Assembly (NCBI GenBank): GCA_001600175.1
Contig: BCJC01000006.1
Coordinates: 124,001 to 188,000 of the forward strand
DNA length: 64,000 bases
Direction of reading: 5' to 3'
Source: Erythrobasidium yunnanense
Lineage: Eukaryota > Basidiomycota > Cystobasidiomycetes > Erythrobasidiales > Erythrobasidiaceae
Shown here in pieces: positions 26,862 through 60,556 of the stretch. Each line of letters starts with the position of its first letter. Within the stretch, counting starts at the first letter, position 1. The notes beneath the pieces were generated by a model that saw only the letters and a list, made by a program, of their open reading frames with translations, searched no databases and was not told where the DNA came from. The translations under genes were made by a program, and so were the position numbers.

Positions 26862-27810
26862 TTACGGGGCCAGACGCTCGATCTTCCACTGATTGCTCGA
26901 GTTCAGAGTATACCGAGCTCGATCATGCAATCTACATCGATTCTTTAGCGTTGGAGCAGCTGACAAGGTGTAAGGCTCACCTGTTCTCGCGGCCTACCCA
27001 AAATTCCACCTCGTGCGGCACTATCCTGACGCCTCCCCAACTCTTGGGTAGAGGCACAGTCTTCCCTTGATCCAAAGGATCATCGGCTTTCCGTGTCGAG
27101 CTTCCCAACTCAATGCCATATTTCGCCTCGTTTTGCTTGACGAGATCCTCCAGATCGTCTCGCCCACTAACGACCTGACTCTGAGGACTTGAATGTGCGC
27201 CTATCTGGCTACCGATTGGCCGAGATCTGAAGTACTCGTAGCTTTCTTCCGCACTGACTCGCTCCACCTTACCGGCGACCCGCACAGATCGGTGCATATC
27301 TCGCCAGTACCAACATGCAGCTGCTTTCGTGCCTTCTTTCTTGTCTAGATCAGGACTGAGGCCAAGCTCTCTGCCTTTCCGGCTTTCGTAGTTCGTGAAG
27401 AATACGAAACCGCGTTCGTCGACTTGCTTGAGCAGAACCATCCTCACGCTTGGCTGTAGAGTCTCTGAATCTACTGTAGCGATAGAGACTGCTTCTGGCT
27501 CCGGAACACCCTGACTTTGAGCTTCGCTGAACCACTCGGAGAACTGCTCGATCGGCGAAGCTTTCAAGGAAGACAGATCCATAGGAGGAGCATGATACTG
27601 ATAATGGCCGGTAATCTGCTGGTACGCCTTGCCGGCGCTGCCATTTGCGAAAGAAGTCGTGTCTTTCGATGACGGCGTCGTTTTTGGCTCGTCTTGCGTC
27701 GACTTGGACGTAGAAGCTACATCGGAAGACATGGCGTCCATTGAGAGGTATCTGGTAGAACGTATCAAAGGTCGAAGGGAAGGACGAAAGAAGATCGCGC
27801 AACGGATCAT
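26862..27810 (-). CDS. PDX3: Pyridoxamine 5'-phosphate oxidase
   Basis: Two exons. The N-terminus MIRCAIFFRPSLRPLIRSTR is basic and possibly mitochondrial. An internal ATG before DAMSSDVAS could give a cytosolic form. The catalytic domain includes PIEQFSEWFSEAQSQGVPEP, SVRMVLLKQVDERGFVFFTN (FMN site), YESRKGREL, AACWYWRDMHRSVRVAGKVE, YFRSRPIGSQIGAHSSPQS and VRIVPHEVEFW. A final short exon adds LHDRARYTLNSSNQWKIERL and AP, the classic PNPOx C-terminus. Its intron starts GTGAGC near 26976. The enzyme makes pyridoxal 5'-phosphate from PNP/PMP using FMN and oxygen. An insertion (SSTRKADDPLDQGKT) lengthens the loop before the substrate-binding end. Confidence 0.93.
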
Positions 27811-42500: not shown

Positions 42501-44252
42501 ATCGCGCTAAGCAGATTGTTTCAATGATCAGAGCTGCGCAAAGCAATCCGGATATTGGGGATATCACGGCAAAGCAATTCGCAGATGCTTATCGCGGTTC
42601 GGAAAGTAAACAAGTCAGTATGCATTCTCTTTGCGCTGAATGTAGTTCATCTGACACCGTAATCAGATCAAGGACAAAGGCCTCAATGTTCTCGTCGGGG
42701 CTAAAGGGGGCGCTGACCTTACTCTCACCGATACTGAGCGCCTCTTCAATTTGCTTTCGAGCGAGGGTATTACTCAAGACAAGACTGTAGCCAAAGGATC
42801 ATATTCGTTTACATACCTTACTGTGGGTTTATCAGATCGCATATATTAGATTTCGCTAAACTCGGTCCGTACAGCTTGGGCGCAATGCTGGTCAGCTGAG
42901 CCGTGAGAAACATCTGGAAATGGCCTTTGTTCCTCCCCCACCCAAGTCAAAAGCATCAGGCAAAGCAGCAAACAAGTCAAAGCAGCCAGCCGCCGTCAAC
43001 ACTATCCCTCAAGCCTTCTCGAGGCGCGATCAACAGCAAGACGAAGAAGAGGAAGAAGAGGAAGAGACAATCATCACCACAAAAACGCAGACCGTCACCA
43101 GAAAGAGGAAGAGCAGGGCTGCGCAAAGTAGCAAGAGGAAAAGTCGACGAGAAAGCTATGACAGCCGAGATGAAGACGAGTACGAGCCTGAGGACGAGCC
43201 TGATGAGGACGATCTCCACTTCGTCGTAAACGATAGCGATACCCTAACCGAGGGCGACTCGAGCGATGATGAAGAAGAGGACTCCGATCTAGAGGTCATG
43301 AACCCTGAAGTATGGAGAACGGCACGACAAGCCACACAGCAACCCGCGAGAGCCGAACCATCAAAGGGATCGAAGAAGCGCAAAGTCGAGCCGGAAATCC
43401 AGGATCCTGCTGAGGCGCTCTTTGCGGAGCTGTTCCAAGTAGTGGTCGACGTGAGCTAGTGTCTCTGTGATATTACACTCTGTGGACTCGCGCTAATGTT
43501 GCTGCCGCAGTGGGTGTACGCTCAGGATGCTGAGGTTGAAGATTCGCTACAGACTGCCATCCAGATGATCGCTGAGCAATGTCCGACCGTATGATAGATC
43601 TGCTAGTTCTCACGATACCTACTAACGATGTTCACCAACAGACAGCTGCTGAATTCACCAGTATTCCCGGAATGACGGAGGAAATATACGATGAGGTAGG
43701 CTGCTAAACGTAGGAGCTGATTTGAAGTGTATACTGAAGCCCAATGTCCTGTCCTACCAGATCGGAGGCCAGTTGCGAGTGAGTCGATCGTCGTAGCCAT
43801 TGCGCTCCGTCCCCTCTCTAAATCCTAGCTCTCTTCAGAAAATTACGATGAAGTATGCGAAGCGAGCTGGGAAGATGGTCGCTTCTCAGGCTCCGGTGGC
43901 CACGAAGGCCTCTGCAGTGAAGTTCAAGCCAGCTAAGCCCGCTGGTCGTACAACATCTGTCCAATCGATCTCATCTGGATCCACGAGTTCCTCGAAGGCC
44001 GCAACTACCTCGAAAAGGTAGAGCACTCTCGTACTGCTAGTGACCGCGCTGAGACGTCATGCCAGGTCGAACAAAAAGGAAACATCTACAATTCGATCGA
44101 ATAAGGAGGGAGATATTACAGCGCATTTAAGGAACACATATACATATCAAGAACCTACCAATAGTCGAGGCAGCGCAAGAGGAGGTCAGCGACTAGGCGG
44201 AGTTCCTGCTGCACGAGACGGAATAGCTGCGATGCCTGTTCGACGAGGATAA
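39583..44252 (+). CDS. SGS1: RecQ family DNA helicase, Sgs1/Rqh1/BLM type
   Basis: Large multi-exon gene. A disordered N-terminus (start [20 protein letters not shown]) includes a coiled coil with [10 protein letters not shown]. The helicase core follows: [37 protein letters not shown] (Walker A), [34 protein letters not shown] (DEAH), [51 protein letters not shown] and [19 protein letters not shown]. The RecQ zinc module is [18 protein letters not shown], then a winged helix. A Lys/Ser/Asp/Glu-rich linker leads to an HRDC domain ([40 protein letters not shown]). The tail is basic and Arg/Gly-containing. It unwinds recombination and replication intermediates with Top3-Rmi1 in known systems. 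Parts are duplicated on both flanks. Confidence 0.92.
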
Positions 44253-44789: not shown

Positions 44790-45539
44790 ATGAAGACAGC
44801 AGTCCAGGAGGCAGAATCGCCAGCTGGCGGCCCTGAAGGCTCCCAACGAGACGACAGTACACTTGCTCAAAGTAAGGGAGTAATAAAGTAACCTGGAGCG
44901 GCTGTAGCGAGCTATGACAGCAAGGATGAAGATGAGTATGAACCTGAAGATGAACCGGATGAGGATGACCTGCACTTCGTGGTCAACGACAGCGATACCC
45001 TCACAGAAGGCGACTCAGATTACGAGGAAGACGAAGACTCTGATATTGAAGTTATGAACCCTGAAGTCTGGAAGGCTGCTCGTCAAGCCAATCAACAGCC
45101 CTCCACAGCAGAGGCTTCACAAGGCTCCAAGAAACGCAAAATCGAGGCAGACTTTCAAGATCCGGCCGACGCACTGTTTGCAGAGCTCTACCAAAAGGTC
45201 GTCGACGTGAGCGCATCCTTCTGCGAAAACATGATTCAACCGTTATCGACACCAATGATGATTTGTGCAGTGGGTGTGCGCTCATGATGTTGAGATCGAA
45301 GATTCGCTGCAAAATGCAATCGAGACGATCGCCGAAGAGTGTCCGACAGTACGCTAGATCTACTGTTTTCCAAGTCTTCTACTAACGAGACCTATAAACA
45401 GGCAGCAGCCGAGTTTACCAGTATACCTGGTATGACGGAAGAGATATACGACAAGGTACGCCGAAAGGCGTTCACTTTACGGTGAGGTGACGCTGACGAC
45501 CTCTTCTGTCAGATCGGAAGTCAACTAAGATTAAGATGA
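44790..45539 (+). CDS. HRDC-domain mini-gene duplicated from RecQ 3' end
   Basis: From an ATG at 44790 (MKTAVQEAESPAGGPEGSQR), a 36-nt intron leads into [40 protein letters not shown], then [58 protein letters not shown] and [20 protein letters not shown]. These match the RecQ acidic linker and HRDC domain residue for residue, with conservative changes and the same intron positions (after VVD, after CPT, after YDK/YDE). The helicase core is absent. The donor after SQLR that RecQ uses next (GTGAGT) is TTAAGA here, so the frame probably stops at 45537-45539. The predicted product is about 190 residues with one HRDC domain, a nucleic-acid or protein-binding module. The 5' exon is inferred. Confidence 0.6.
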
Positions 45540-45589
45540 TTGATACAGCAGATGACAGGCCAGCCTCTCAAGTCTACTTCTCTGCAGAA

Positions 45590-45932
45590 AGTTACCATCA
45601 AACACGCAAAGCAGGCTGCCAAACTGGTTCCCACTCACGCTTCGGTGCTGAAGAAAGGCCCTACTAGCAAACACAAGCCATCACAGTCCGCTAGACAGAC
45701 CACATCCGTCCAGTCTATCTCCTCCGGCACCACAAATTCTTCAAAAGCAAATTACGACGAACAGCCGTACATGCATTTCCTCTCCCCCTCGGTTTCTGGT
45801 TGACTAACGCTTTAAGCTAGATCGACCAAGATAGAGACATCTTCGTCTCACGTACATGCAGCCCTCCAACGATTGAGATACGCATCTGGTGGACGAAGCA
45901 GAACTTCTGCAGTGCCCGAGTCCAAACAGTAA
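45590..45932 (+). pseudogene. Relic of the RecQ C-terminal tail exons downstream of the HRDC copy
   Basis: Sequence after 45590 still reads like RecQ's tail: KVTIKHAKQAAKLVPTHASV against [20 protein letters not shown], then [17 protein letters not shown] against [18 protein letters not shown] further exon-like piece (STKIETSSSHVHAALQRLRY ..SGGRSRTS) follows. The splice donor needed to join it to the HRDC exons is missing, so it is likely untranslated. Conservation of frame suggests the loss is not old, or that an unrecognised splice exists. Confidence 0.5.
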
Positions 45933-54140: not shown

Positions 54141-54825
54141 GGTGCTCTGTCTCTATGGTCGAATGGTCGTTCTCAGTGCGAAGGTGAGGAAACCAAGCTC
54201 AACGCTTGCGGATGCGTCGAGCTATGGAGCTATAGCCAGAACTTCGCACTCTGCAAGAATGGATACAACAGAACCCTACGTATGGACGTCTATAGTCAGG
54301 CTAGCATCAACCGCGACGGCTCGCGCGAATCTTTCTAGAACTCGGCTCGTACGGTTCCCATCAGACATCATACAAGACACTATCGATGCAGCCTACCTGG
54401 ATGTCTGCAGAGGCTTCGCAGATCGTCAGCACATCCACAGCGGAAGAGGTTGGCCTCTTTTTCCTCCTTTCCGTAATTCTCGTCGAGTCCCCTCCGCATC
54501 CTCAGCCTGACTTGCAAGGCAACAAACGCGCTCTTCTGACCTGCAGAGGCAGCAGAGGAAGACGTCCGGTCGGCAGGGACTGACTCCGATTCGCGTTGGG
54601 AAATTCGATTGATACAAGGGCGAGTACCAAGGATGCAAATGGCACTTCGCATCACCTTCACCTCCACTCACAAGGGATGTGGAGCGGGGTGCGGCAGGCC
54701 AGCTCACTGCAAATCGCCCTCAAAAAGCCATCTCCAGCATCCTGCGCTCTTTTTCTGTTCGAACCAAATGTCGACTCTACATCGAGCAAGCTCCAGTATA
54801 TATACGCGCGATCAGATAAATCAAA
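54141..54825. promoter_or_regulatory. Divergent region, EBP gene / first CSG-family gene, with TATA box
   Basis: This 685-nt gap separates a minus-strand start (54140) and the first gene of the small Cys-rich family (54826). A clear TATATATA element lies at about 54796-54803, some 25 nt before the plus-strand ATG, so the transcript may start very near the ATG or the ATG may be reached by a short leader. Open frames here have no coding character. Confidence 0.5.
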
Positions 54826-55155
54826 ATGCCTCTACCATCTCTACCGGATCGCCGCTGCGACCACAGCATCCCCAGCCGCAGCCGCGGCAGCAGGTCCTGC
54901 AGTGGTACTATGACATTCGACTCGGAAGCCATACAATACGTATGTCAGACCTACTCGACGGCCCATCGCTCAGCGGCTAAGCAAGCAGTGATGGATGCCT
55001 GTCAAGCACTGGGTCATATCAAGAGAAAGGATGACTACACCCAACAGGTGGGATCGCGACGTGGTCCTGGAGGCGATGTGCCTAGGTATGCGACCTTCCG
55101 CATGACCTCGTGTCAACACTGCGGCTACGAGTTCGAGAAGTGTCTAAGCGCCTAA
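54826..55155 (+). CDS. Small Cys-rich protein, CSG family member 1
   Basis: Intronless, 109 residues, start MPLPSLPDRRCDHSIPS. It contains the family motif CSGTMTF (Cys25), then Cys40, His47 and Cys59, and ends SCQHCGYEFEKCLSA with a C-x2-C pair. Spacings CSG-Cys to next Cys = 15 residues, and that Cys to the following Cys = 19 residues, equal those of the second member. The first Cys is 14 residues before CSG rather than 5. There is no signal peptide. Repeated Cys/His spacing suggests a small zinc-binding fold, which is inference. No known family is recognised. It is the first of three tandem genes on the same strand. Confidence 0.6.
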   Translation: MPLPSLPDRRCDHSIPSRSRGSRSCSGTMTFDSEAIQYVCQTYSTAHRSAAKQAVMDACQALGHIKRKDDYTQQVGSRRGPGGDVPRYATFRMTSCQHCGYEFEKCLSA

Positions 55156-55780
55156 ATACAAGTCTTCCGGCACAGTCCTTATCTTCGCTTCTGCAATCAA
55201 TAACCTCCCTAATAATCATGTTTGCGCTGCTGCGCTGGCCGCGCCTTGTCATTGTTACAGCTGGAGCATCTACATACTGATATGAAATCGCATATCTACT
55301 TTCACCATTTCAATGTTGCGGTATATAATGCTGAGTATAGTGCGTTCGACTGATTCCTTTCTCCCCACGTCGTTTTGTCATCACAACTGTAGACAGCTCG
55401 TTTACACGAATACGTACGTGGACTTCAACCCAAGGAGCATCATTTCGGCACCGCCTTGAAGCGCCTGCAACACGAGACTGATGCACGTTAACGCATCGTC
55501 CAGCAGCCTTCCTGAACGTTCTAAAGGGTCGGTACTGCTTCAACGATCAGACATGCGCGACCAATACGACAACTCGCAAGTTTCAAGCTACTCGTACTTT
55601 GTCATCTCCTATGCTGACTGATTATTTTCTAGCCTGCCCTTTCTTCAAACGGCGACCTTTGTCGACCATCATGGCGGTGGAGCGTTTCATTTCCAGATCG
55701 CCTGTCCTCCTCACTATTTGAACAAACTCCGGTGGCATCAGACGTGCGACGCCTTCAATCAACTCCACGCCCTTCCACGA
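55156..55780. other. Spacer between CSG-family genes 1 and 2
   Basis: This 625-nt spacer has short frames on both strands without family motifs or coding character. A TTG-initiated extension upstream of gene 2 (from 55718) reads through but lacks an ATG. Confidence 0.35.
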
Positions 55781-56119
55781 ATGCTTGTCCCGCATCTGTT
55801 GAACGAAGCCTGCCCTGAAGAGGCATGCAGCGGCATGATGACGTTCGATCCAGACAAGATCAGGTACATTTGTAAACGCAAGCCCTATCAGCATCGTCGT
55901 GATGCTGGTCTCAAGCTGCTAGAACGTTGTCAGACCCTCCTTCATGGCGCCCGTCATTACGAAGAATGCTTCAACAGAGGACAACAGCTTACTAGAGGTG
56001 GAAGCTACCTTCAATTGAGACAAATCTACGACACGTACGAATGTTACAGATGGCGTTACAAAATACGCAAAAGCAGGGGTATATCAAGCGATGCTCTCGA
56101 GCGTCCTCGGTGGCTATAA
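55781..56119 (+). CDS. Small Cys-rich protein, CSG family member 2
   Basis: Intronless, 112 residues from the ATG at 55781 (MLVPHLLNEACPEEACSGMM). Cys11 and Cys16 form C-x4-C-S-G-x-M-x-F. Cys31, His38 and Cys50 follow at the same spacing as in member 1. The C-terminal half, FNRGQQLTRGGSYLQLRQIY then DTYECYRWRYKIRKSRGISS, matches member 3 (GRGLQLTKRGSYMGVEFYDT, YICPTCSYNKTVSRGISKA). The second Cys of the terminal C-x2-C pair is Trp here (CYRW), so one putative metal site is altered. Lys/Arg-rich. No signal peptide. Function unknown. Confidence 0.6.
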   Translation: MLVPHLLNEACPEEACSGMMTFDPDKIRYICKRKPYQHRRDAGLKLLERCQTLLHGARHYEECFNRGQQLTRGGSYLQLRQIYDTYECYRWRYKIRKSRGISSDALERPRWL

Positions 56120-56519
56120 GGGCCGGGTTCACTCTTATCTACTATGACTGTGACGCCTCCTTCTTCTCCATACCGCATGACTGTCTCTGCTTTCGGGTGC
56201 CCTCTCTTCACATGGCTTGCATGCTTACCGTGGCTTCTGCGACGCCCCAGCCGTGGTCGCCTTGCTAAGTCAACGAATATGCATAGATCACCTTATTCCT
56301 TGAAAGATATACCGAGGCCTGGCTTATCGACTCCACAGAAAATCAAAGATTCAGTACGATACCAAGTGTCCCGTCGTTACCCTTGTTGACAGTAATGGCT
56401 GTGTCCATACTGGCTTTCGCATGCAAACCTCACATCCCTCTCTCGCCTCTCCTCTCTTACTCAATCTTCTGACATATCTCCACAAGACACCACTCTTGAG
56501 TAACAAACTACCTCTAACC
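56120..56519. other. Spacer between CSG-family genes 2 and 3
   Basis: This 400-nt spacer has CT-rich sequence (CCCTCTCTCGCCTCTCCTCTC) at 56430-56460, likely promoter/leader for gene 3. No other feature is seen. Confidence 0.35.
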
Positions 56520-56834
56520 ATGCCTGCCGGTATCCCCAGACTCCAAGACATCAACTGCTATAAGGACCGCTGCAGTGGCAAAATGAGGTTCAGTAGCTCC
56601 AAACTGAGCTTCGTCTGTCGTGAGAACGAGCGTCATCAACTCAATGCGGCCCCAACGCTGCTGCAGTACTGCCGGTCGCAGGGCCATCAAGTGACGCACG
56701 CCGAATCGTCAGTCGGCCGTGGACTTCAACTTACCAAGCGTGGCAGCTACATGGGAGTCGAGTTCTACGACACTTACATCTGTCCTACGTGCTCATACAA
56801 CAAGACCGTTAGCAGAGGTATCTCGAAAGCTTGA
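56520..56834 (+). CDS. Small Cys-rich protein, CSG family member 3
   Basis: Intronless, 104 residues, start MPAGIPRLQDINCYKDRCSG in a good ATG context. Cys13 and Cys18 make C-x4-C-S-G-K-M-R-F. Cys33, His39 and Cys51 follow. The C-terminal part has RGLQLTKRGSYMGVEFYDTY and an intact C-x2-C (ICPTCSYN), ending SRGISKA. It looks like the most regular member and is the best template for family searches. No signal peptide or membrane span. Function unknown. The shared architecture with members 1 and 2 and the tandem layout indicate local duplication. Confidence 0.65.
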   Translation: MPAGIPRLQDINCYKDRCSGKMRFSSSKLSFVCRENERHQLNAAPTLLQYCRSQGHQVTHAESSVGRGLQLTKRGSYMGVEFYDTYICPTCSYNKTVSRGISKA

Positions 56835-57039: not shown

Positions 57040-58757
57040 ATGCCTTTCAGAGTGTCCCAAAAGGTATGTGTAGGTTTTAAGCGGTCCATAGCACCAGGCT
57101 CACTGCAGTCAGGCCTGAAATTCGAGTATGCTTCTATACCCTTCTCACCTTGGCGGCCTTGTCTACCCTTCATCGAGCGCAGAATACCACCTATAGGACC
57201 TGCTGCCCTATTCTATCGCTACTTCAGAGTCTTCTGGATTGCCGTGACGTTACCGACCTGGATCGGAGTTGTCTGCTTGTTCGAATTGCTGCCACGGGCT
57301 TGGGGAGACAGGATCAGCAATGCACTACTACCACGAAGAAAAGGCTGGACTCTATGGCAAAGATTCACTTATCCGATCTTGGCGAGAGCTGTCTGGTAGG
57401 TCTCGTGTTCTTTCTAATCTATCGCATCTCTAAGTTGGTGTACAGGGCAATCACATTCGGGCTCCCGCCAGCAGCGTCTCCTGTGACTGAGCGCTCGATA
57501 CCACCGCTTGCCTACTTCTATGGCAGAGGGACAGACATAGAACCTGTCAATCTCGCCTTCGAGAACGCAAAAGACGAGAAGCTATGGATACAAGACGACG
57601 CGATTGATCCTAGAGGCAAGATCGTACCGCAAGACTACCTAGCTGGATTTTGGATCAGGCGGAAGGGAGCGTCAAAGGCGAAAGCAACTGAAGGCAAGGA
57701 TATCGAAGTGGTTCTATACGCTGTTGGCGGTGGCTATATCACAGGTAGGTGCTTATGTCAAGGTATGTGCGCGTACTGAGCTGTTTGCAGGCCACCCTCT
57801 TGAAGCAAGCCGAGTATTCGATATCGCCCGAAGGTCTGGAAAGCCCGTCCTAGGCGTAAACTACCGCAAAGCAGTGACGCTCGAGCGTGGCTACCCAGCA
57901 GGCCTCCAAGACACCATCTCAGCCTATGCGTTCCTCATGCGAAAAGGCTATACTCGAATAGCAGTAGCTGGCGACTCTGCAGGAGCAGGTCTTGCCATCG
58001 CTTTAATGCAGTATCTGGCACGTTTATCAGAGAAAGAGAAGGGGATGCGTCCGCCTACGCTTACACTGCCCCGTAAAGCATGCTTCTACTCGCCGTGGGC
58101 GGATCTAACCTTTTCGCATGACTATGGACAAGCTGTCTACTTCGACATCAGTATGTCAAATACATTTCGATCCTCTACAACAAGCTGAGCAGCTTCCTTC
58201 GCAGTACATACGACTATGCTTGCGGGAGCTGCATCGGCTTATGGCACGAATCTGCTCAACTATGACGGTGCGAGCGATAATGATCGAGAAAGTATCGCCA
58301 ACATGAAGCGATCTCATCCTTATCTATCACCTGCACTTAGTGAGTCGCGGATAGAAGGGCGTGAAAACTGGGCTGACCGATTTGCGACAGAAACGTCCAT
58401 CCCGTCTTTGACACGGACCCGGAAAGCAGCGACTATGCTTCAGCAGGATACGACACAGTAGGTGTTTCCACCTTATGCAGAGTCCAGCTAAATGGTGTCG
58501 ATGCAGGTTCCTTATCTTTTACGGTGGAGCAGAGTTGTTTCATACCGAAGACATGGCGCTTTGCGAGAATCTGCGGACTGCTGGCTTCGACGTAGAGGAG
58601 TATGCAGAAGAAGACGAAACTCAGTGAGTGCTCTGCCATGATGAATTGCAACCATAGAACTGACTTTGCATTCAGCGGCTTTCTGCTAGTCCCGACGTTC
58701 ATGTCGCTAAAGGTCTTGCCGGCACTCGAGAGGATGGCAGCGTTCTTGGGAGATTGA
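57040..58757 (+). CDS. Alpha/beta-hydrolase fold-3 protein (steryl acetyl hydrolase / lipase-like)
   Basis: Multi-exon. The start MPFRVSQK joins, through GTATGT..CTGCAG, to SGLKFEYASIPFSPWRP. A hydrophobic region follows (LPTWIGVVCLFELLPRAW). The hydrolase core has VEVVLYAVGGGYITG-type oxyanion loop (actual IEVVLYAVGGGYITG), HPLEASRVFDIARRSGKP, VLGVNYRKAVTLERGYPAGL and RIAVAGDSAGAGLAIALM (G-D-S-A-G nucleophile elbow), then FYSPWADLT. A later exon gives RFLIFYGGAELFHTEDMALC with the acid, and the end is GFLLVPTFMSLKVLPALERM (His expected just before GFLL). The family removes acetyl or short acyl groups from sterols and lipids, often at the ER. Confidence 0.8.
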
Positions 58758-58957
58758 TAGACGTTATGAGAGCTGTCGTTGTACACCTAGGTCGCACACA
58801 CGTGAGGGCTTCAGATCATCACCAACCGAAAGAGCTTCTCAGACTAGTCACTTCTGCCTTAGACGCTCGCTACCTACCTCTCTTCGAAGTCAGTCTTGCC
58901 TCTGTCGCAGCGGTCGCCCAGACTGAGAGACACCTTGCACAGAAAGAGCCGGTCGAG

Positions 58958-60556
58958 ATGCAGAACCAGCTTGGGCGACAGCAGCGCATACTCTCGAATT
59001 TTGCGTGCAGCTGTAGCTGCTCGTTATCATCTAAATCTTCTCCGCTGCGATGGCGATGGACTACCAATGCTGCCGTAGAAGCTGCATCTTCAAGGTCAAG
59101 ATTCGGTCGGCGGAACTTCCGTACTTCATTGTACGCAGCATCAGCTTCGATAGCATCTTCGAGTGCTGGTGTAGGACTGCTCCAAGGACCATCAAAGCGG
59201 CCGCTCGAGAGCTTCTTCAAGCACAATTCTCTGGCTCGAAAAGTAGAGCAGGCGCAAGATACCCGTTCTGCAGAAGACAGGATTCTTACAGCAGAAGCGT
59301 CACATCTTCCTATCCGTTCTTCCTCTCCTCCCTTCATCAGCCATGCTGCTCCACAAATACCGGACACAATAGTGCCGCCAATAGCGACTCCTACATCTGC
59401 CTGGAGAGCTCTCGATAGTCCAAAAAGCTTACGAGCGCAGTTGAGCATATACAAGCAGCTAGCGAAAGGACGACTATCAGCATGGGTAGTCCTGACTTCC
59501 ATGGTGGGTTACGCAATGTGTCCTACGGATCCTGCTGCAGCTGCATTAGCGATGGAAGCGCTTGTCCAAGATACCTTCGGTACAGCGACTGTCACCAATG
59601 CACTCTCGAGCTCGCTGGACAGCACGGCTGCGGCGAACACATTCCGCGTAACGACTCTTTTGGCGACGGCAGCTGGAACCGCTTTGTGTTCCGCTTCTGC
59701 CAACACGTTCAATCAGCTTATTGAGATTCCGTACGATGCTCAAATGCCAAGAACGCAAAAGCGACCTCTACCCTCTCACCTCATCACTCCCCTCCACGCA
59801 TTCACTTTCGGATCTCTATCGGGCATCAGCGGTCTTGCATTGCTAGCCTCTGTCAACCCGCTAACAGCCTCTCTTGGACTGTTGAACATCGTGCTCTATG
59901 CGGGAGTGTACACACCTCTCAAGCGTCTAAGCGTAGTAAACACCTGGATCGGAGCGATTGTAGGGGGGATACCACCTCTTATGGGCTGGGCAGCATGCAC
60001 AAATTCCCTTGATCCCTTCTCAGGACAAGCAGGAGCTTGGGTTCTAGCTACTATTCTCTTCGCATGGCAATTCCCACACTTCAATGCTCTTTCTTGGACG
60101 ATTCGTTCCGAGTATGCAAGAGGTGGATATCGGATGCTCAGCGCCATTAATCCAGGAATGAATGCTCGGGTGTCGTTAAGATGGTCATTGGCGTGCGGAG
60201 CAGCAGCTGCGGTCGGTGCACCGCTCGTAGGCTTGACGAGTTGGACTGTCGGAATGGTCACGCTCATTCCTAGTGCGCCCCTAGCGATATACGCATGGCG
60301 ATTCTGGAGGGCGGGATCTACCAAGTCGCTGCAGGCAGCAAAGCAGTACGGAGTCATGAATACTGTCAAGGGAGCAAGAGCGACGGATAAAGACCCGAGA
60401 GATGCTTCTGCTAGAAGCCTGTTCTTCGTCAGCTTGGTGCATCTACCACTTCTTCTAGCGGTAATGATGGTAGGGAATGTACTTGAGAGCTGGCTGGCAT
60501 CGTGGAGGTCAGATTCAGATGGTACGGAAACAGAGTCAAAGGCAGCGAGCGCGTAG
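58958..60556 (+). CDS. COX10: Protoheme IX farnesyltransferase (heme O synthase)
   Basis: Intronless. I choose the ATG at 58958 (MQNQLGRQQRILSNFACSCS) because the next 50 residues are basic, Ser-rich and free of acid (WRWTTNAAVEAASSRSRFGR), as for a mitochondrial presequence. An upstream in-frame extension to about 58754 would overlap the preceding stop codon. The UbiA core shows LSAWVVLTSMVGYAMCP, SANTFNQLIEIPYDAQMPRT (first Asp-rich motif N..D..MxRT), IVLYAGVYTPLKRLSVVNTW, GAIVGGIPPLMGW, FAWQFPHFNALSW and RGGYRML. It adds farnesyl to heme b at the inner membrane for cytochrome oxidase. About 530 residues. The loop DPFSGQAGAW is normal. Confidence 0.93.
   Translation: MQNQLGRQQRILSNFACSCSCSLSSKSSPLRWRWTTNAAVEAASSRSRFGRRNFRTSLYAASASIASSSAGVGLLQGPSKRPLESFFKHNSLARKVEQAQDTRSAEDRILTAEASHLPIRSSSPPFISHAAPQIPDTIVPPIATPTSAWRALDSPKSLRAQLSIYKQLAKGRLSAWVVLTSMVGYAMCPTDPAAAALAMEALVQDTFGTATVTNALSSSLDSTAAANTFRVTTLLATAAGTALCSASANTFNQLIEIPYDAQMPRTQKRPLPSHLITPLHAFTFGSLSGISGLALLASVNPLTASLGLLNIVLYAGVYTPLKRLSVVNTWIGAIVGGIPPLMGWAACTNSLDPFSGQAGAWVLATILFAWQFPHFNALSWTIRSEYARGGYRMLSAINPGMNARVSLRWSLACGAAAAVGAPLVGLTSWTVGMVTLIPSAPLAIYAWRFWRAGSTKSLQAAKQYGVMNTVKGARATDKDPRDASARSLFFVSLVHLPLLLAVMMVGNVLESWLASWRSDSDGTETESKAASA

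Follow-up and report, generated by a model that had tools for sequence, protein, structure and literature searches.

Three uninterrupted ATG-to-stop open reading frames (ORFs) lie on the + strand, all within 2.0 kb of the window, the 64,000-nucleotide stretch analysed here (positions 124001-188000 of contig C6, in a genome of 20.9 Mb and 10 contigs). The three encoded proteins are homologous, with similarity beyond chance. In our estimate there is about an even chance that old local duplication has produced a small family of orphan Cys/His proteins that are basic, are not secreted and are probably stapled by zinc. The coordinates, strand and lengths agree with the preliminary description of this DNA:

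54826..55155, + strand, member 1, 109 aa, net charge +5
55781..56119, + strand, member 2, 112 aa, net charge +8
56520..56834, + strand, member 3, 104 aa, net charge +8

The preliminary description set these intronless genes apart from their neighbours. The three frames are uninterrupted, but the contrast with the neighbours is weak, as the window has other uninterrupted genes. In particular, COX10 (heme O synthase, UbiA family; 58766-60556), two genes downstream of the trio, is a single uninterrupted ORF of 596 aa, and the lack of introns is therefore weak evidence. A PNPOx-family gene (26977-27810, 277 aa), ~28 kb from the trio, is uninterrupted as well. Just downstream of member 3 lies an alpha/beta hydrolase gene (57040-58461, limits by eye), which is apparently split by introns; its ORF 57937-58188 matches Abhydrolase_3 and Say1_Mug180. 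A 90-aa antisense ORF (55622-55894, - strand) overlaps the start of member 2; it has no Pfam match, and its codon usage is like that of random frames. Elsewhere in the window, a direct duplication pairs 43154-43999 with 44910-45748 (853 columns, 68% identical, blastn E 1.4e-84). Its first copy holds an acidic tail ORF (42920-43459) just past a RecQ zinc-binding stretch, and the two may be one gene. The second copy, about 1.75 kb downstream, is also open in one frame.

Pairwise protein identity is 38% for members 2 and 3, 28% for members 1 and 2, and 25% for members 1 and 3. The corresponding Smith-Waterman scores of 171, 96, and 72 are 29.4, 15.1, and 8.4 s.d. above those of shuffled sequences, and none of 5000 shuffles reaches the observed score in any pair. 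In protein searches of the own genome, the best other matches of each member are the remaining two members. The E-values are 1.4e-15 and 3.0e-15 (reciprocal queries) for pair 2-3, 4.8e-6 (query 2) and 2.4e-6 for pair 1-2, and 0.072 (query 3) and 0.089 for pair 1-3. The DNA similarity of pair 1-3 is not recognisable; most of the DNA-only alignment of this pair lies out of frame (35, 34, and 35 in-frame sites vs 63, 60, and 59). Two families of short DNA repeats coincide with the conserved protein blocks:

54897..54918, + strand, DNA of the C-S-G-x-M-x-F motif in member 1, reference copy of direct-repeat family D1, the sole direct repeat found in all three genes
55825-55846, another copy of D1
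56570-56591, another copy of D1
56025..56038, + strand, DNA of the YDTY block in member 2, repeat family D11
56764-56777, second copy of D11, in member 3

Protein searches with each member find no fourth copy in the 20.9-Mb genome, within their sensitivity. A weak match of member 1 at C1:4618272 (E 0.36) was rejected; it is a C-x2-C stretch in another reading frame, RING-like by eye. The YDTYxC codon pattern has four matches in the genome, two of them known, and the other two, in frame, are not members. The DNA of 54200-57000 matches only itself in the genome at the sensitivity of the search, with no sign of a dispersed repeat. The upstream 400 bases have one 7-mer in common (counting its complement; null mean 5.3) and no common 8-mer. 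With the members within 2.0 kb and no further genome copy found, the proposed local duplication is supported. That it was recent is disfavoured by the 25-38% identity and by synonymous sites near saturation. The members are most likely old, diverged in-place duplicates, or fast-evolving ones. Judging from the identities, member 1 was probably the first to branch off, with members 2 and 3 separating later.

C-S-G-x-M-x-F is present in all three members, and the spacing after it is as first described: the next Cys lies 15 residues on in each member, a His comes 7, 7, and 6 residues after that in members 1, 2, and 3, and another Cys lies 19, 19, and 18 residues past the preceding Cys. The alignment has 18 invariant columns, including five Cys and two His. 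Among these seven Cys/His columns are two that the earlier list omitted, the Cys before the motif (C11, C11, and C13 in members 1, 2, and 3) and the His of a C-x4-H found in three of three members:

Member 1: C11, C25, C40, H47, C59, H64, C96
Member 2: C11, C16, C31, H38, C50, H55, C88
Member 3: C13, C18, C33, H39, C51, H56, C88

The first Cys pair is C-x4-C in members 2 and 3 and C-x13-C in member 1, which has nine extra residues between C11 and C25. A C-x2-C is completed by C99 in member 1 and C91 in member 3, near the end of the protein rather than at its terminus as had been described. Member 2 reads C-x2-W at this position and so lacks the final Cys. The C-terminal block reported for members 2 and 3 is shared, except that member 3 reads RGSY, not GGSY. 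The seven conserved columns, together with an excess retention of Cys (see below), make a small zinc-binding fold plausible, with member 2 lacking the last Cys.

The absence of a known family, as claimed from the sequence, is borne out within the limits of the tools: no credible relative appears in Pfam, NCBIfam, PHROGs, PDB sequences, or a search of 5.8 billion proteins. Pfam and NCBIfam give no match over the cut-off for the trio. In the 5.8-billion-protein search, which depends on shared 5-residue words and could miss fast-evolving or distant fungal relatives, member 3 finds no candidate and the three-sequence alignment finds 36, none at E <= 1. As a control, COX10 in the same search has environmental relatives as its best 11 of 120 listed matches (61-82% identity over 54-88% of its length); among its listed matches with an organism name, Mixia osmundae is best at 48%, followed by Tilletia walkeri at 46%. 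The source is therefore probably a basidiomycete that has no close organism-named relative in this database. Rfam gives nothing at gathering scores over 53.5-58.5 kb, and no relative is confirmed in viral contigs (28 pattern stretches) or in prokaryote genomes (71). Listings from literature searches, too general for a claim about what is in print, do not name the family. PHROGs gives weak touches only. Gasdermin (E 0.044), a phage HNH family (0.0078), and a further phage family (0.25) are too weak to use, and touches to PDB sequences at E 0.65-1.2 (lowest 0.65) were not used.

The absence of structure and family matches may be compatible with a known fold. Of the alternatives, the trio being diverged members of a known zinc-binding family (zinc ribbon, THAP-like C2CH finger, or DUF3716-like), missed by profiles with three sequences, survives best, and we regard it as rather unlikely. 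The C-x4-C ... C-x2-C layout resembles zinc ribbons, and the C-terminal C-x2-C-G-Y-x-F of member 1 resembles the UPF0547 (PF10571) zinc-ribbon knuckle, with a weak match at E 0.0043. However, this match covers 13 residues around the C-x2-C and is below the cut-off (17.6 bits vs 29), Pfam lists UPF0547 for neither member 2 nor member 3, and member 2 has an incomplete knuckle. Residues 47-106 of member 1 also touch the phage HNH family mentioned above. A zinc ribbon has two complete knuckles of C-x2-C type; in the trio, member 2 lacks the last Cys and the first pair is C-x4-C or C-x13-C. The THAP-type C2CH zinc finger has the pattern C-x2-4-C ... C-x2-H. The trio resembles it in the N-terminal position, in the C-x4-C of members 2 and 3, and in a later C then His, but has C-x4-H instead of C-x2-H, C-x13-C in member 1, and further conserved ligand candidates; Pfam lists no THAP match for the trio. 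DUF3716 (PF12511) is a fungal Cys-rich domain, and the C-x2-C-x-Y near the C-terminus of the trio resembles the second half of its layout. Pfam does not list DUF3716 for any member up to E 10, where HMMER filters drop weak matches, and the DUF3716 model is silent in the own genome and in 14 control genomes as well.

Lineage-restricted (orphan) families of small Cys-rich genes in tandem arrays are a general kind in fungi. The trio is like them in being small, single-exon, tandem, and fast-diverging, with no homologue found. It differs in having no visible signal peptide, a basic charge, and invariant His among the Cys. The proteins look intracellular and metal-type rather than disulfide-type.

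M1, P4, L6, and C11 align across all three members, and the chosen starts are therefore supported. A stop lies three codons upstream of the ATG in member 1; in member 2, the 53 codons back to a stop contain no in-frame ATG. In member 3, an in-frame ATG at 56421 would give a protein of 137 aa; the added stretch is rich in pyrimidines and is matched by nothing in members 1 and 2, and the presence of a signal peptide with this ATG is ambiguous. At the proposed starts no signal peptide is visible by eye, as first noted. The sequence TATATATA (54797-54804) precedes the member 1 ATG by 22-29 bases and would leave little room for a 5' leader if used. That the proteins are secreted and effector-like, with their Cys in disulfides and a true N-terminal exon or start missed, is unlikely in our view. 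Small size, richness in Cys, tandem arrangement, fast evolution, and lack of a found homologue would all suit such proteins, as would the upstream ATG of member 3 and the leucine-rich stretch that follows it. However, the upstream sequence of members 1 and 2 offers no in-frame ATG between start and stop, the conserved residues begin at the proposed Met, and an odd number of invariant Cys with two invariant His suits metal better than disulfides. The suggestion of an effector-like role is thus disfavoured. The best reading by eye is that the members are non-secreted, with secretion possible through an unseen upstream exon.

A further reading is that the genes are decaying or unexpressed copies of a family once functional and now drifting. 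Neutral decay was simulated at the observed nucleotide differences of 47, 58, and 60% (pairs 2-3, 1-2, and 1-3; 2000 runs, fixed alignment). The observed protein identity is reached in 0 of 2000 runs for each pair, and the Cys count is matched in 6, 1, and 0 runs. Because the real alignment had been optimised on protein, the simulation was redone with realignment. Identity is then reached in 8, 24, and 4 of 2000 runs, the Cys count in 7, 6, and 1, and the alignment score in 0, 0, and 1 (same order of pairs). In every pair, both the protein identity and the number of Cys retained are higher than in simulated neutral decay; therefore, the proteins have probably been under selection. In addition, simulated decay brings about 4 stops on average and leaves 0.011-0.015 of runs stop-free, whereas all three frames are open despite the 47-60% nucleotide difference.

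Rate estimates are limited by saturation of dS, with 5 of 9 dN/dS estimates giving no result (LWL85 for two pairs and YN00 for three). NG86 gives dN 0.58 and dS 2.07 for pair 2-3, dN 0.89 with no dS for pair 1-2, and dN 1.09 and dS 1.80 for pair 1-3; LWL85 gives dN 0.57 and dS 1.19 for pair 2-3. The excess of identity at codon positions 1 and 2 over position 3 is within the codon-shuffled null (29, 59, and 99 of 500 for pairs 1-2, 1-3, and 2-3). Codon usage of the trio is like that of random frames of the window, 0.75, 0.64, and 0.58 of which score as high. By comparison, 12 pieces of five other ORFs, some not verified as genes, stand at 0.008-0.50 under a training set that differed slightly. 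Codon-position asymmetry and codon usage thus lend no support to coding. These two results favour decay, as do the Cys missing from member 2 and the nine-residue insert in member 1. Given the open frames and the excess of protein identity and Cys retention, we consider decay quite improbable. With moderate certainty, these comparisons argue that the proteins, above all their Cys, have been under constraint.

An AlphaFold model of member 2, computed from the three-sequence alignment, has mean pLDDT 73.1 and pTM 0.49, with the ten-residue blocks from 61 to 100 at pLDDT 80-88. The model suggests a beta-beta-alpha-beta-beta-beta fold and has no significant structural match. A single-sequence model of member 3 (pLDDT 55.6) was set aside; ribosome entries make up 31 of its 50 listed matches, at E >= 0.7, and are taken as meaningless. 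It is highly improbable that the fold is a RAD52/ERF-like single-strand annealing DNA-binding one, with a long antiparallel sheet, one helix, and incidental Cys. Such rows recur for the member 2 model but without significance: no TM-score by model length is above 0.33, and most rows have a VIA rmsd of about 7 over 88 residues. In addition, a handful of PDB entries account for many of the rows through their several chains. No RAD52 is among the 50 matches listed for the member 3 model. The least tenable alternative, chance ORFs with an accidental motif, could appeal to the CSGxMxF codon pattern, which occurs 10 times in the genome vs 9 for a reversed-pattern control, but is refuted by the shuffles for all three pairs. 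Homology that extends past the motif also speaks against it, as do the seven matches other than the trio, which in frame lack the shared block.

For the orphan Cys/His family that we favour, we propose the following course. Two in-place duplications of one small ancestral gene, either ancient or accompanied by fast evolution, would have produced the three genes, each encoding a basic, non-secreted protein of ~105 aa. Each protein retains C-x4-C (C-x13-C in member 1), a Cys at +15, a His at +6/7, C-x4-H, and a Cys near the end (C-x2-C in members 1 and 3). In the expressed protein, zinc bound by the Cys and His would staple a small beta-beta-alpha-beta-beta-beta domain. The simplest arrangement would have a first site made of C-x4-C and C-x4-H and a second made of the middle Cys with its His and the knuckle at the C-terminus. 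The stapled domain may present its basic surface to a nucleic-acid or protein partner. In member 2, the second site would be lost or changed. The copies are likely not equivalent, because member 2 lacks the last Cys.

In a more specific version, this fungal lineage alone would have a new, small metal-binding fold. Its beta-beta-alpha-beta-beta-beta core would carry two Cys/His sites that interleave (C-x4-C...C-x4-H and C-x5/6-H...C-x2-C), and after duplication in place the second site would have been modified in member 2, with a change of function. We hold this version to be doubtful.

Novelty is modest, as lineage-specific families are a common finding and fungi often have orphan tandem families; what would set the trio apart is the putative metal site and the way it is altered in member 2. 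If the proteins are expressed and bind metal, the trio would show on a small scale how a metal-binding family specific to one lineage diverges once its gene has been duplicated locally; otherwise it is an ordinary orphan family. In the former case, the one copy without a candidate ligand would provide a test of the gain or loss of a metal site.
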